This document shows, piece after piece, positions 44,770-61,777 of a stretch of DNA of 64,000 bases; the stretch's first letter is position 1, and each line of letters begins with the position of its first letter. The notes beneath the pieces are model-generated. The model searched no databases. It was not told the origin of the DNA and worked only from the letters and a program-made list of their open reading frames with translations. The DNA is from Actinophytocola xanthii (lineage in GTDB: Bacteria > Actinomycetota > Actinomycetes > Mycobacteriales > Pseudonocardiaceae): NCBI RefSeq assembly GCF_001921205.1, contig NZ_MSIE01000006.1, positions 1 to 64,000 of the forward strand, read 5' to 3'. Both the position numbers and the translations under genes were made by a program.

Positions 44770-45213
44770 ATGGACGAGCTGAAGCCCTTTGTCACCGGGA
44801 TCGACCATGTCGGCATCGCCGTACCGGACATGGACGAGGCGATCGCCTTCTACCGGGACGTGCTGGGCCTCGAGCTCTACCACGAGGAGACCAACGAGTC
44901 CCAGGGCGTGCGCGAGGCGATGATGCGTGCCCCCGGGGACACCGGCGGAACGGCGGTGCAGCTGCTCGCCCCGCTCGGCCCGGACACCACGATCGGGAAG
45001 TTCCTGGCCCGCAGGGGCCCGGGCGTCCAGCAGGTCGCCTACCGCGTCACCGACATCGACGCCGCCACCGACGCCCTGCGGGCCAAGGGGTTACGCGTGA
45101 TGTTCGAGGAGTCGGGGATCGGCACCGCGGAGAGCCGGGTGAACTTCCTGCACCCCAAGGACGCCGGCGGGGTGCTCATCGAGCTGGTGGAGCCGGCGGT
45201 TCCCCCCCGGTGA
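44770..45213 (+). CDS. mce: Methylmalonyl-CoA (ethylmalonyl-CoA) epimerase
   Basis: A 147-residue VOC-fold enzyme. IDHVGIAVPDMDEAIAFYRD, VQLLAPLGPDT, GVQQVAYRVTDIDAA and GVLIELVEP provide the His and Glu metal ligands of methylmalonyl-CoA epimerase. The same enzyme epimerises ethylmalonyl-CoA in the ethylmalonyl-CoA pathway. ATG 44770 gives the usual N-terminus. It diverges from the thiolase gene, and its end overlaps the convergent TetR gene by 38 bases. Confidence 0.94.
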   Translation: MDELKPFVTGIDHVGIAVPDMDEAIAFYRDVLGLELYHEETNESQGVREAMMRAPGDTGGTAVQLLAPLGPDTTIGKFLARRGPGVQQVAYRVTDIDAATDALRAKGLRVMFEESGIGTAESRVNFLHPKDAGGVLIELVEPAVPPR

Positions 45214-45790
45214 GCGCGCCGGCGATGAACTCGACCTCGCGGTCGATCGTCTCCGCCGTCGCGACGTCCTCGGACTCGCCGTGCCGGGCCACGGAGTGCC
45301 GGTAGCTGACCGCGAGGGCGAGCAGTCCGGCGGCCGTGTCCACCGCCGCGCCGGGCAGGGTGCCGGTCGAGGCCGCCAGGATCACCGCGCGGACCTGGTC
45401 GACGATCCGGGTGAACCGGCGCTGAAGGGCGTCCCGGACCGCGGTGTGCGTGTCGGCCTCCCGCCACAGCAGGTGGGACAGCAGGTACGACGCCCGCAGC
45501 CGCGCGTCGAGCTCGGCGACCAGCCGACGCAGGCTCGCCGCGACGTCACCGGGCACCACCACCCCCGCCGGCTCGACCCGCTCGTCGGGCAGCCGCTCCA
45601 CGAGTGCGGCCAACAGGTCGGGCTTGCGCTGGAAGTAGTAGTGCACGAGCCCCTTGGGCACCCCGGCCCGTTCGGCGATCCGCGAGGTGGGCGTCGCGTC
45701 GAAGCCGGCCTCGGCGAACAGCTCCTCGGCGGCGGAGAGGATCCGCTCCCGCGCGCTCGGGTCGTCTCCCCGGTTCCTGGTCAGGCGCAT
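45176..45790 (-). CDS. TetR-family transcriptional regulator
   Basis: A 204-residue regulator. The N-terminal helix-turn-helix RERILSAAEELFAEAGFDATPTSRIAERAGVPKGLVHYYF (in part SRIAERAGVPKGLVHYYF) is canonical. The ligand domain is unassigned. ATG 45790 is the start. It lies between the epimerase and an SPW protein, 0.6 kb from ccr, and is the nearest candidate regulator of the acyl-CoA genes. A CCTTTC-TGC-GAAAGG palindrome just upstream (45801-45815) could be its own operator. Confidence 0.92.
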   Translation of the reverse strand: MRLTRNRGDDPSARERILSAAEELFAEAGFDATPTSRIAERAGVPKGLVHYYFQRKPDLLAALVERLPDERVEPAGVVVPGDVAASLRRLVAELDARLRASYLLSHLLWREADTHTAVRDALQRRFTRIVDQVRAVILAASTGTLPGAAVDTAAGLLALAVSYRHSVARHGESEDVATAETIDREVEFIAGALTGGEPPAPPAR

Positions 45791-46379: not shown

Positions 46380-46397
46380 GTTACTGGCCAGTAGCGT
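46380..46397 (+). promoter_or_regulatory. ccr operator palindrome overlapping a likely -10 box
   Basis: GTTACTGGCCAGTA (46380-46393) contains the perfect 12-bp palindrome TACTGGCCAGTA. Its last TA begins TAGCGT (46392-46397), a TANNNT-type -10 box placed 8 bases before the ccr ATG, so the transcript may be leaderless. An identical 14-mer precedes the ethylmalonyl-CoA mutase gene. A repressor bound here would block RNA polymerase. Confidence 0.62.
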
Positions 46398-46405
46398 CGG
46401 CGGGC

Positions 46406-47737
46406 ATGCAGAAGATCCTCGACGCCGTTCTCGCCGGTGAGACCGCCGCCCTCGGTTCCCTGCCCGTCCCCGAGTTCTACCGCGGGGTCACGGTGCACGC
46501 CGACGAGGTCGAGATGTTCGCCGGGGAGTCCACCCAGGACAAGGACCCCCGCCGCTCCCTGCACGTGGACGAGGTGCCCACCCCCGAGCCCGGCCCGGGT
46601 GAGGCCCTGGTCGCGGTGATGGCGAGCGCGATCAACTACAACACCGTCTGGACGTCGATCTTCGAGCCGCTGTCGACGTTCGAGTTCCTGCGGCGCTACG
46701 GCCGCACCTCCGAGCTGGCCGCCCGGCACGACCAGCCCTACCACGTGGTCGGCTCCGACCTGGCCGGCGTCGTGCTGCGCACCGGTCCGGGCGTGCACGC
46801 CTGGAAGCCGGGCGACCGCGTCGTCGCGCACTGCCTCGACGTCGGGCTGGAGCACCCGGACGGGCACGGCGACACCATGCTCGACCCCGAGCAGCGCATC
46901 TGGGGCTTCGAGACGAACTTCGGCGGGCTGGCCGAGCTGGCCCTGGTCAAGTCCAACCAGCTGATGCCCAAGCCCGCCCACCTGAGCTGGGAGGAGGCCG
47001 CCTGCCCCGGGCTGGTCAACTCCACCGCCTACCGGCAGTTGGTGTCGCGCAACGGCGCGGCCATGAAGCAGGGGGACACCGTGCTGATCTGGGGAGCCTC
47101 GGGCGGGCTCGGGTCGTATGCGACCCAGTTCGCCCTGGGCGGCGGCGCGATCCCGGTCTGCGTCGTGTCCAGCGAGCAGAAGGCGGAGATCTGCCGGCGG
47201 ATGGGGGCCGAGCTGATCATCGACCGCAGCGCGGAGGGCTACCGGTTCTGGAAGGACGAGCAGACCCAGGACCCGAAGGAGTGGAGGCGGTTCGGCGCGC
47301 GGATCCGCGAGCTCACCGGCGGTGACGACCCGGACATCGTGTTCGAGCACCCGGGGCGGGAGACCTTCGGCGCGAGCGTGTTCGTCGCCCGGCGCGGCGG
47401 CACGATCGTCACCTGCGCGTCGACCAGCGGGTTCCTCCACCAGTACGACAACCGGTACCTGTGGATGCACCTCAAGCGGATCATCGGCTCGCACTTCGCG
47501 AACTACCGCGAGGCCTGGGAGGCCAACCGGCTCATCACCCGGGGGCGCATCCACCCCACACTGTCCAGTGTGTACCCACTGGAGCAGACCGGACAGGCGG
47601 CGTTCGACGTACACCGCAACGCGCACCAGGGAAAGGTCGGCGTGCTGTGCCTGGCACCCGAGGAAGGGCTGGGCGTGACCGACCCGGAGCTGCGCGAACG
47701 GCACCTTCCCGAGATCAACCGCTTCCGCGGGGTCTGA
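46406..47737 (+). CDS. ccr: Crotonyl-CoA carboxylase/reductase
   Basis: A 443-residue zinc-less medium-chain reductase that reductively carboxylates crotonyl-CoA to ethylmalonyl-CoA with NADPH and CO2. Typical Ccr features are YHVVGSDLAGVVLRTG, WGFETNFGGLAELALVKSNQLMPKP (in part), the nucleotide-binding WGASGGLGSYATQFAL, and the CoA-side HLKRIIGSHFANYREAWEAN region (in part). The length matches the family. ATG 46406 gives the standard N-terminus (MQKILDAVLAG). A palindromic operator lies immediately upstream. This enzyme defines the ethylmalonyl-CoA pathway and also supplies extender units for polyketides. Confidence 0.95.
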   Translation: MQKILDAVLAGETAALGSLPVPEFYRGVTVHADEVEMFAGESTQDKDPRRSLHVDEVPTPEPGPGEALVAVMASAINYNTVWTSIFEPLSTFEFLRRYGRTSELAARHDQPYHVVGSDLAGVVLRTGPGVHAWKPGDRVVAHCLDVGLEHPDGHGDTMLDPEQRIWGFETNFGGLAELALVKSNQLMPKPAHLSWEEAACPGLVNSTAYRQLVSRNGAAMKQGDTVLIWGASGGLGSYATQFALGGGAIPVCVVSSEQKAEICRRMGAELIIDRSAEGYRFWKDEQTQDPKEWRRFGARIRELTGGDDPDIVFEHPGRETFGASVFVARRGGTIVTCASTSGFLHQYDNRYLWMHLKRIIGSHFANYREAWEANRLITRGRIHPTLSSVYPLEQTGQAAFDVHRNAHQGKVGVLCLAPEEGLGVTDPELRERHLPEINRFRGV

Positions 47738-56448: not shown

Positions 56449-56540
56449 CGCAACCTCCGGAGACCGAAAACCGGTTGCGCCGGATGCTACCTGCCGGTAA
56501 CAACGTTGTTCGGGCGGTCGTGGCCCAGCTCACGAACGGG

Positions 56541-59704: not shown

Positions 59705-59722
59705 GTTACTGGCCAGTACCCT
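59705..59722 (+). promoter_or_regulatory. Mutase-gene operator palindrome overlapping a likely -10 box
   Basis: GTTACTGGCCAGTA (59705-59718) is identical to the 14-mer upstream of ccr and contains the palindrome TACTGGCCAGTA. Its final TA begins TACCCT (59717-59722), a TANNNT -10 box. A GGGAGG ribosome-binding site lies 7 bases before the mutase ATG. The shared placement argues for common repression. Confidence 0.65.
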
Positions 59723-59752: not shown

Positions 59753-61777
59753 ATGCCGTATCCGACCGATGACGAGCGGGACCGTCCGTGGGTCATGCGC
59801 ACCTACGCCGGCCACTCCTCCGCCGCCGCGTCGAACCGGCTCTACCGGCGCAACCTCGCGAAGGGGCAGACGGGACTCTCGGTCGCCTTCGACCTGCCCA
59901 CCCAGACCGGCTACGACCCCGACCACGTGCTCTCCCGGGGCGAGGTCGGCAAGGTCGGCGTCCCGGTCAGCCACCTCGGCGACATGCGCCAGCTGTTCGA
60001 GGGCATCCCGTTGGCCGAGGCCAACACGTCGATGACCATCAACGCCACGGCGATGTGGCTGTTCGCCCTCTACGTCTCCCTCGCCCAGGAGCAGGCCGAG
60101 CAGCAGGGCGCCGACTGGCACGAGGTCGTCGGCCGGCTCACCGGCACCACGCAGAACGACATCATCAAGGAGTACCTCTCCCGGGGTACATACGTGTTCC
60201 CGCCGGGGCCTAGCCTCCGGCTGATCACCGACATGGTCGCCTGGACCGTCGCGAACGTGCCCAGGTGGAACCCCACCAACATCTGCAGCTACCACCTGCA
60301 GGAGGCAGGCGCGACGCCGGTCCAGGAGATCGCCTACGCCATGTCCACGGCGATCGCCGTGCTCGACGCGGTGCGCGACTCCGGGCAGGTGCCCCAGGAC
60401 CGGATGGGCACGGTCGTCGCCCGCATCTCGTTCTTCGTCAACGCCGGAGTGCGGTTCGTCGAGGAGATGTGCAAGCTGCGCGCGTTCGCCGCGCTCTGGG
60501 ACGAGATCACGCTCGAGCGCTACGGCGTGCGGGACCCGAAGCACCGCCGCTTCCGCTACGGGGTGCAGGTGAACTCGCTCGGCCTGACCGAGGCCCAGCC
60601 GGAGAACAACGTCCAGCGGATCGTGCTCGAGATGCTCGCGGTGTCCCTGTCCCGCAACGCCCGGGCCCGCGCGATCCAGCTGCCGGCGTGGAACGAGGCT
60701 CTCGGGCTGCCGCGGCCCTGGGACCAGCAGTGGGCCCTGCGGATGCAGCAGGTGCTCGCCTACGAGACCGACCTGCTCGAGTACGAGGACATCTTCGACG
60801 GGTCGCCGGTGGTCCAGTCCAAGGTCGACGAGCTCGTGGCCGGTGCGAAGGCGGAGATCGCGCGGGTGCAGGAGATGGGCGGAGCCGTCGCCGCGGTCGA
60901 GAACGGGTACATGAAGACCCAGCTGGTCGCCTCGCTCGCCGAACGCCGTCGCCGGATCGAGGCGGGCGAGGAGATCGTCGTCGGGGTGAACCGCTTCGCG
61001 ACGACCGAGCCCAGCCCGCTGGAGGGCGAGGGCGTCATCGAGACGATCGACCCCGAGGTCGAGCAGCAGGCGATCGCGGCCATCCAGGCCTGGCGCGACC
61101 AGCGCAACCAGTCCGAGGTGGACAAGGCGCTGGAGCAGCTGACCGCGGCCGCCCGCACCGACGCCAACCTGATGGAGGCCACGCTCGGCTGCGCCAGGGC
61201 CGGCGTGACGACCGGCGAGTGGGCGGGCGCGCTGCGCGTGGTGTTCGGCGAGTACCGGGCGCCGACGGGGGTGTCCGGCGCGTCGGCCGGCGGGGAGGCC
61301 GCGGGCGAGCTCGCCGCCGTGCGCGACCGCGTGCTGGCGACGGGTGAGGAGATCGGCGGCCGGTTGCGCATGCTGGTGGGCAAGCCCGGCCTCGACGGTC
61401 ACTCCAACGGCGCCGAGCAGATCGCGGTGCGTGCCCGTGACGTCGGCTTCGAGGTCGTCTACCAGGGCATCCGGCTCACCCCGGAGGAGATCGTCGCGGC
61501 CGCCGTGCAGGAGGGCGTGCACGTGGTCGGCCTGTCGATCCTGTCCGGGTCGCACCTCGCCGTCGTGCCCGAGGTCGTCGACGGGCTGCGTGCGGCGGGC
61601 GCGTCCGGGGTCCCGGTCGTGGTCGGCGGCATCGTCCCGCCCAACGATGCGCAGGTTCTCCGCCAGCGTGGCGTCGCTAGGGTGTTCACGCCGAAGGACT
61701 ACGAGCTCACCGAGATCATGAACGAGATCGTCGACGTGGTCCGCGAGGCGAACGGAATCACCACGGCAACGGGATGA
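59753..61777 (+). CDS. ecm: B12-dependent acyl-CoA mutase, probable ethylmalonyl-CoA mutase
   Basis: A 674-residue mutase in one chain: a substrate-binding barrel (residues 1-530; VAFDLPTQTGYDPDH, SMTINATAMWLFALY, CSYHLQEAGATPVQE) and a C-terminal cobalamin domain with KPGLDGHSNGAEQI, in which Asp548-x-His550-xx-Gly553 is the B12 signature. Single-chain MeaA-type mutases of this length convert ethylmalonyl-CoA to methylsuccinyl-CoA. Methylmalonyl- or isobutyryl-CoA activity cannot be ruled out. The ATG 59753 is preceded by GGGAGG; a longer frame upstream is a shadow of nucS. It shares its operator with ccr. Confidence 0.9.
   Translation: MPYPTDDERDRPWVMRTYAGHSSAAASNRLYRRNLAKGQTGLSVAFDLPTQTGYDPDHVLSRGEVGKVGVPVSHLGDMRQLFEGIPLAEANTSMTINATAMWLFALYVSLAQEQAEQQGADWHEVVGRLTGTTQNDIIKEYLSRGTYVFPPGPSLRLITDMVAWTVANVPRWNPTNICSYHLQEAGATPVQEIAYAMSTAIAVLDAVRDSGQVPQDRMGTVVARISFFVNAGVRFVEEMCKLRAFAALWDEITLERYGVRDPKHRRFRYGVQVNSLGLTEAQPENNVQRIVLEMLAVSLSRNARARAIQLPAWNEALGLPRPWDQQWALRMQQVLAYETDLLEYEDIFDGSPVVQSKVDELVAGAKAEIARVQEMGGAVAAVENGYMKTQLVASLAERRRRIEAGEEIVVGVNRFATTEPSPLEGEGVIETIDPEVEQQAIAAIQAWRDQRNQSEVDKALEQLTAAARTDANLMEATLGCARAGVTTGEWAGALRVVFGEYRAPTGVSGASAGGEAAGELAAVRDRVLATGEEIGGRLRMLVGKPGLDGHSNGAEQIAVRARDVGFEVVYQGIRLTPEEIVAAAVQEGVHVVGLSILSGSHLAVVPEVVDGLRAAGASGVPVVVGGIVPPNDAQVLRQRGVARVFTPKDYELTEIMNEIVDVVREANGITTATG

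Follow-up and report, generated by a model that had tools for sequence, protein, structure and literature searches.

Do ccr, the gene for crotonyl-CoA carboxylase/reductase, and an acyl-CoA mutase gene of Actinophytocola xanthii answer to one regulator, and if so, to which? The question arises from the 64,000-nt stretch of DNA analyzed here (GCF_001921205.1, contig NZ_MSIE01000006.1, positions 1 to 64,000, forward strand; hereafter "the window"), which comes from a genome assembly of 8.34 Mb in 204 contigs. The original prediction for this stretch had placed an identical palindromic operator at both promoters and had proposed a shared repressor, with the nearest TetR-family gene as the candidate for its source. 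The ethylmalonyl-CoA pathway decides the growth of actinomycetes on acetate and fats, and ethylmalonyl-CoA, the product of Ccr, goes into many polyketide antibiotics as a building block; a defined operator together with a testable regulator would open control of ethylmalonyl-CoA supply.

Operator sites in the window and in the genome

Profile searches assign ccr, the mutase, and a 3-hydroxybutyryl-CoA dehydrogenase (Table 1) to families that all act on acyl-CoA thioesters. The mutase exceeds the cut-offs of two models of the methylmalonyl/ethylmalonyl-CoA mutase family and reaches 534.3 bits against the methylmalonyl-CoA mutase model NF006944, below the cut-off of 876; from its context, we infer that its substrate is ethylmalonyl-CoA. 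Thiolase, epimerase, and MeaB-type genes found near ccr and the mutase gene fit the ethylmalonyl-CoA pathway, in which the order of the enzymes is general knowledge. The dehydrogenase consists of two tandem enzyme copies in one protein, with 3HCDH_N present in two stretches.

Table 1. Genes and operator sites discussed in the text, with their positions in the window
Feature	Position	Strand	Basis or detail
TetR-family gene, candidate reader in the original prediction	45176..45790	-	TetR_N
Operator at ccr, TTACTGGCCAGTAGCGT	46381..46397	+	core 46382-46393; TANNNT box TAGCGT 46392-46397
ccr, crotonyl-CoA carboxylase/reductase	46406..47737	+	TIGR01751, 612.9 bits (cut-off 378.55)
Fused tandem 3-hydroxybutyryl-CoA dehydrogenase, 591 aa	54673..56448	-	NF005875, 673.1 bits (cut-off 319), two stretches
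Degenerate operator before the dehydrogenase gene, TTACCGGCAGGTAGCAT	56484..56500	-	pattern scan
Operator at the mutase gene, TTACTGGCCAGTACCCT	59706..59722	+	core 59707-59718; TANNNT box TACCCT 59717-59722
Acyl-CoA mutase, methylmalonyl/ethylmalonyl-CoA mutase family	59753..61777	+	TIGR00641, 450.3 bits; TIGR00640, 131.7 bits; both above cut-off

The predicted sequence GTTACTGGCCAGTA is indeed found on the + strand at 46380 to 46393, upstream of ccr, and at 59705 to 59718, upstream of the mutase gene. At both promoters its 12-bp core, TACTGGCCAGTA, is a perfect palindrome whose last TA starts a TANNNT box, as had been claimed. It had also been stated that the window holds no further exact copy, and this agrees with our scan, in which only two of four matches with up to two mismatches are exact; shuffled windows contain a mean of 0.41 such matches (100 shuffles). 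The pattern TTAC-N6-GTA-NNNT occurs in exactly three places in the window: at ccr, at the mutase gene, and at a third site overlooked in the original prediction, GTTACCGGCAGGTAGCAT (TTAC...T at 56500 to 56484, minus strand), which lies 35 bp upstream of the ATG of the dehydrogenase gene. By eye, no clear -35 box is seen upstream of the window's sites. At ccr, 8 bp separate the end of the -10-like box from the ATG (window region 46392 to 46406), which makes a leaderless ccr transcript possible in this genus; the same -24 position is seen at L024 to L027.

Across the whole genome, where a scan had been proposed as a check, the exact motif has three copies compared with one for the reversed-pattern control. 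Two are those at ccr and the mutase gene, and the third lies at C12:9928, where neither a promoter nor the start of a gene is convincingly apparent. A more general form of the motif, TTACYSNNSRGTANNNT, gives 12 matches at 11 places versus 0 for the reversed control; it is still stricter than the pattern used for the window, and the dehydrogenase site falls outside it. The sites of this genome include the fasR promoter and an enoyl-CoA hydratase-like gene. Elsewhere in the genome, three operators lie within approximately 4 kb (C46:114996 to 119019; L281 to L283 and L172), one of them between phosphopantetheinyl-transferase-like and membrane protein genes and the others at glycosyltransferase-like and methyltransferase-like genes (all named by eye).

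Conservation and the wider set of site-bearing genes

Conservation in related genomes, a further check that had been suggested, is high. From a sample of 100 genomes of the family, we took high-identity matches as 70 ccr loci (69 at at least 80% identity and one, G103, at 78%) and 70 mutase loci, leaving further ccr paralogs and mutases of 39% identity out of the counts. TAC-N6-GTA is present upstream of 66 of the 70 ccr genes and 66 of the 70 mutase genes, and together with the T of TANNNT it is present upstream of 64 and 66, respectively. The shuffle controls (200 dinucleotide shuffles) cover the first 50 loci of each gene, and in these shuffles TAC-N6-GTA appears at 1 or 2 at most. The strict form TTAC-N6-GTA-NNNT is found at 40 of these ccr and all 50 of these mutase loci versus a maximum of 1 in the shuffles, and on the antisense strand of the same loci at 2 (ccr) and 0 (mutase). 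In the same sets the T of TANNNT follows nearly all TTAC-type sites (40/41 for ccr and 50/50 for the mutase), which ties the operator to the -10 box; the consensus of these sites, taken from column counts by eye, is GTTACYSGYCRGTAMCNT. This conservation at the promoters of both genes lends strong support to a putative shared operator that overlaps the -10 box.

Eight promoters lack the site, five of which stem from the loci added last to the sample. The ccr promoters concerned are those of G007, G076, and G107, all of one genus (g3), and of G103, whose ccr is perhaps a paralog; the mutase promoters are those of G107 and of G070, G102, and G124, the latter three again from one genus (g64). We also observe that the site has been lost at some ccr or mutase genes of g3 and g64 (L504, L506 to L508; L035, L042, L045) and that FasR, the regulator considered below, is among the family's most divergent in these two genera (62 to 64% identity).

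Among 39 non-Streptomyces ccr loci from named records, which overlap the family sample in part and are not independent of it, 36 have TAC-N6-GTA ahead of the gene, and 31 of the 36 have the -10 T in addition; they come from Amycolatopsis, Lentzea, Saccharothrix, Pseudonocardia, Actinokineospora, Kribbella, Planosporangium, Dactylosporangium, and other genera. Within 300 bp upstream of Streptomyces ccr, TAC-N6-GTA is found in none of 41 loci. Class-wide, among the nearest 29 of 127 genomes with a ccr match, nine of the best 29 loci have the site, and one of the nine (L321) belongs to the family of A. xanthii and has already been counted. For the dehydrogenase gene, 12 other genomes were examined: all 12 have TAC-N6-GTA upstream of it, and 6 also have the -10 T (a partial copy truncated at the edge of its region, L380, is not among the 12).

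The same site also precedes acyl-CoA dehydrogenase, EtfB-like, EtfD-like, thiolase, and enoyl-CoA hydratase genes. The pattern TTACYSGYCRGTANNNT has 208 matches in 85 of the 100 family genomes versus 7 for the reversed control. Among the matches listed, 89 loci were chosen, of which 87 were kept after excluding two with an off-center site. For 74 of the 87 sites a gene was called (13 had none), and setting aside four that are ccr or mutase genes leaves 70 other genes. Pfam searches of the 70 (best 25 of 62 families) find luciferase-like monooxygenase (8 genes), the acyl-CoA dehydrogenase middle domain (7), enoyl-CoA hydratase (5), 4Fe-4S domains (5; EtfD-like by eye), DUF4442 and DegV (4 each), serine hydroxymethyltransferase (3), thiolase and MlaE permease (2 each), and GlpX (1). 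These numbers are plain tallies and not enrichment figures, and several of the genes come from sister species and are not independent. EtfB-like proteins begin beside three sites (L181, L195, and L214; by eye). The site-bearing enzymes probably support life on fatty acids and acetate.

Three further features of these promoters deserve mention. In the eight luciferase-like monooxygenase genes (L162, L163, L165, L196, L217, L225, L228, and L246), the start codon lies 23 to 25 bp after the first base of the operator. Paired operators, 24 to 25 bp apart, are seen by eye beside a FadE-type acyl-CoA dehydrogenase gene at L193, L194, L213, and L223. A GTG-N8-CAC box, presumably CRP/GlxR-like, directly precedes the palindrome at 25 of 47 ccr promoters and at 30 of 50 mutase promoters (L024 to L083 and L092 to L131), with shuffle maxima of 3 and 4, respectively; its exact form is absent, by eye, from the window's own two promoters. 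This box suggests that a second, activating regulator of the cAMP type may act at ccr and mutase promoters.

Candidate readers of the operator

We consider it probable that TAC-N6-GTA is an operator joined to the -10 box at genes of acyl-CoA catabolism and of the ethylmalonyl-CoA pathway and that its most likely reader is the ortholog of mycobacterial FasR, a TetR-family protein that senses long-chain acyl-CoA. In A. xanthii, the fasR ortholog lies on contig C127 (41202 to 41825). Its product scores 289.9 bits against the NCBIfam FasR model and 56.3 against the next family; since the equivalog cut-off of 330 is not reached, we term it a FasR ortholog rather than an equivalog member. The helix-turn-helix is almost identical in its best solved relatives, 6o6p and 6o6n, which, judging from the sequence, we take to be entries of Mycobacterium tuberculosis FasR.

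A reader of the site should be present wherever the site is, and this holds for the FasR ortholog in 99 of the 100 family genomes, with one copy in each; the exception, G016 (74% complete), has the ccr site and no FasR match. FasR orthologs are also found in 264 of 296 genomes of the class. It counts against FasR that all eight promoters that lack the site are in genomes that do have it. The operator recurs at fasR itself: TAC-N6-GTA followed by a TANNNT box is present at 30 of 30 fasR promoters examined in the family. Outside the family, fasR has the site upstream in 5 of the 20 genomes examined, with 0 of 4 for family f8, so any autoregulation would not be general. In genomes of group f33/g87, which are Streptomyces-like in look, FasR is present among the matches listed, and it speaks against FasR as the reader that all 41 named Streptomyces ccr loci are nevertheless without the site; the fasR promoters of f33, by contrast, carry a site, GGTTACCGAAAAGTA, in 3 of 3 examined (L354, L355, and L361).

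The site also fits a DNA known to bind FasR. The 25-bp DNA cocrystallized with M. tuberculosis FasR contains AACTCGCCAGTA and TACCCGTACGTA (available text of PMC7382501). When a matrix derived from the ccr and mutase sites is applied to it, this DNA gives a best match of 11.6 bits (P = 0.00035, letter shuffles), and both of its matches together were seen in 0 of 20,000 shuffles; the comparison concerns a single experimental DNA, the better site of which has A for the first T. The two sequences are spaced 13 bp apart, by calculation approximately 86 degrees of helix, in agreement with the neighboring FasR dimers that the same source places on one DNA at roughly 90 degrees.

Among the alternatives to FasR, the one that fares best is another widespread acyl-CoA-responsive regulator, of the TetR family or not, that reads the site and also controls fasR. 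The site-bearing genes belong largely to acyl-CoA metabolism, a first look gave up to 272 TetR candidates per genome, and the site before fasR fits control by another protein equally well, so that another universal TetR could share the motif. We nevertheless regard this as rather unlikely, as the specific candidates fall short: a 400-aa double TetR, encoded beside a site at a thiolase gene (L210), has a match in just 58 of 100 genomes, a TetR at L197 was seen beside a single site, and neither accounts for the fit of the published FasR DNA. In the genus of A. xanthii, a second TetR gene directly follows fasR, and the site before fasR could there serve that protein; this gene was set aside as a general reader, direct adjacency being found in only 4 of 30 fasR loci. 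MadR and AcrT of Saccharopolyspora were also considered and rejected, as their motifs in the published text available (TCTGTGxxxxxxxGT and nttGaTc, respectively) differ from the operator.

The TetR encoded next to ccr in the window, named in the original prediction as the nearest candidate for the repressor of both genes, is improbable as the reader. In its favor, the palindrome is of the TetR type, and 42 genomes of the sample have the gene no more than 5 kb from ccr. Genomes with this TetR keep the site at all 46 ccr and all 47 mutase promoters, and the eight promoters lacking it are all in genomes without the TetR. These losses are, however, mostly in the two genera g3 and g64, and such clustering points to few events. 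An ortholog (E value up to 1e-15, with at most 31 candidates scored per genome) was detected in 63 of 100 family genomes and not in 37, and genomes without it keep the site at 20 of their 24 ccr promoters and 19 of their 23 mutase promoters (39 of 47 together). In named records, 25 non-Streptomyces ccr loci have no such TetR in their flanks, and 23 of these carry the site upstream of the gene. This TetR is thus not detected wherever the site is, and its own upstream DNA has the site in 0 of 34 stretches (150 bp or 300 bp). Both its distribution and its own upstream DNA disfavor it, and of the original claim of a shared repressor, the shared operator stands on its conservation, while the nearest TetR is not favored as its reader. 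Given that its gene is so often found near ccr, the neighboring TetR may act locally, at another site.

That the conserved sequence is a promoter element only, the extended -10 of a special sigma factor, and serves no repressor of its own is very improbable. Almost every ccr and mutase site is joined to TANNNT, which would agree with it, but the inverted repeat preserves its TAC and GTA half sites in 132 of the 140 ccr and mutase promoters, with variable bases in the middle, a symmetry expected of a protein dimer, and the dehydrogenase gene retains TAC-N6-GTA in the 6 of 12 genomes in which the T is missing. Chance similarity of the two sites, in favor of which nothing was found, is contradicted by the conservation and by the pattern counts in window and genome and has next to no probability.

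Proposed regulation and comparison with known systems

Returning to FasR as the preferred reader, we infer that it binds the operator, that it acts here as a repressor, and that long-chain acyl-CoA is the signal. When acyl-CoA is scarce, a FasR dimer would occupy the site and block RNA polymerase at the -10 box, as should be expected of a bound dimer given that site and box share the first two bases of the latter. When fatty acids are present, acyl-CoA would release FasR, and with FasR off the DNA, the ccr, mutase, and dehydrogenase genes and fasR itself would be transcribed.

More tentatively, FasR might be the master switch for life on fatty acids in nonmycobacterial actinobacteria, with one sensor and one operator serving beta-oxidation, the electron-transfer flavoprotein, the ethylmalonyl-CoA pathway (which replaces the glyoxylate shunt), and FasR itself; this broader picture is possible rather than probable. 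FasR would then be a counterpart, from another protein family, of Escherichia coli FadR, a GntR-family protein in which one acyl-CoA sensor represses fatty acid breakdown and activates synthesis. The logic proposed for FasR would resemble that of FadR; the two proteins are unrelated.

In the titles and abstract openings of the open-access literature, we found no paper on a regulator of actinomycete ccr and came across no comparable operator with its regulon in these bacteria; the operator sequence, in variant spellings, had no match in open-access literature. What is already known is TetR control of the pathway in Methylobacterium, by CcrR, and FasR itself.

The closest known system is FasR of M. 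tuberculosis (Rv3208, TetR family), an acyl-CoA sensor with an ortholog in A. xanthii and a near-identical DNA-reading region, whose published binding DNA holds TAC-N6-GTA-like sites. In the available text on the mycobacterial protein, acyl-CoA releases FasR from DNA. The systems differ in target and direction: M. tuberculosis FasR is described, in the available text of PMC7382501, as an activator and not a repressor, with the fas-acpS operon as its known target, whereas the sites found here are at ccr, mutase, dehydrogenase, and beta-oxidation genes and lie over the -10 box, which suggests repression. FasR of Streptomyces coelicolor shares the name and the topic, control of fatty acid genes, but it is an ortholog of MabR and not the TetR protein meant here.

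Among regulators of the ethylmalonyl-CoA pathway, CcrR of Methylobacterium extorquens AM1 likewise represents TetR-family control of a pathway gene; it is reported to be an activator in an alphaproteobacterium, and the likeness is one of regulator family. PccR and RamB, which belong to the ScfR family and are also from alphaproteobacteria, regulate genes for propionyl-CoA and acetate assimilation that are tied to this pathway and differ from the regulator proposed here in both protein family and organism.
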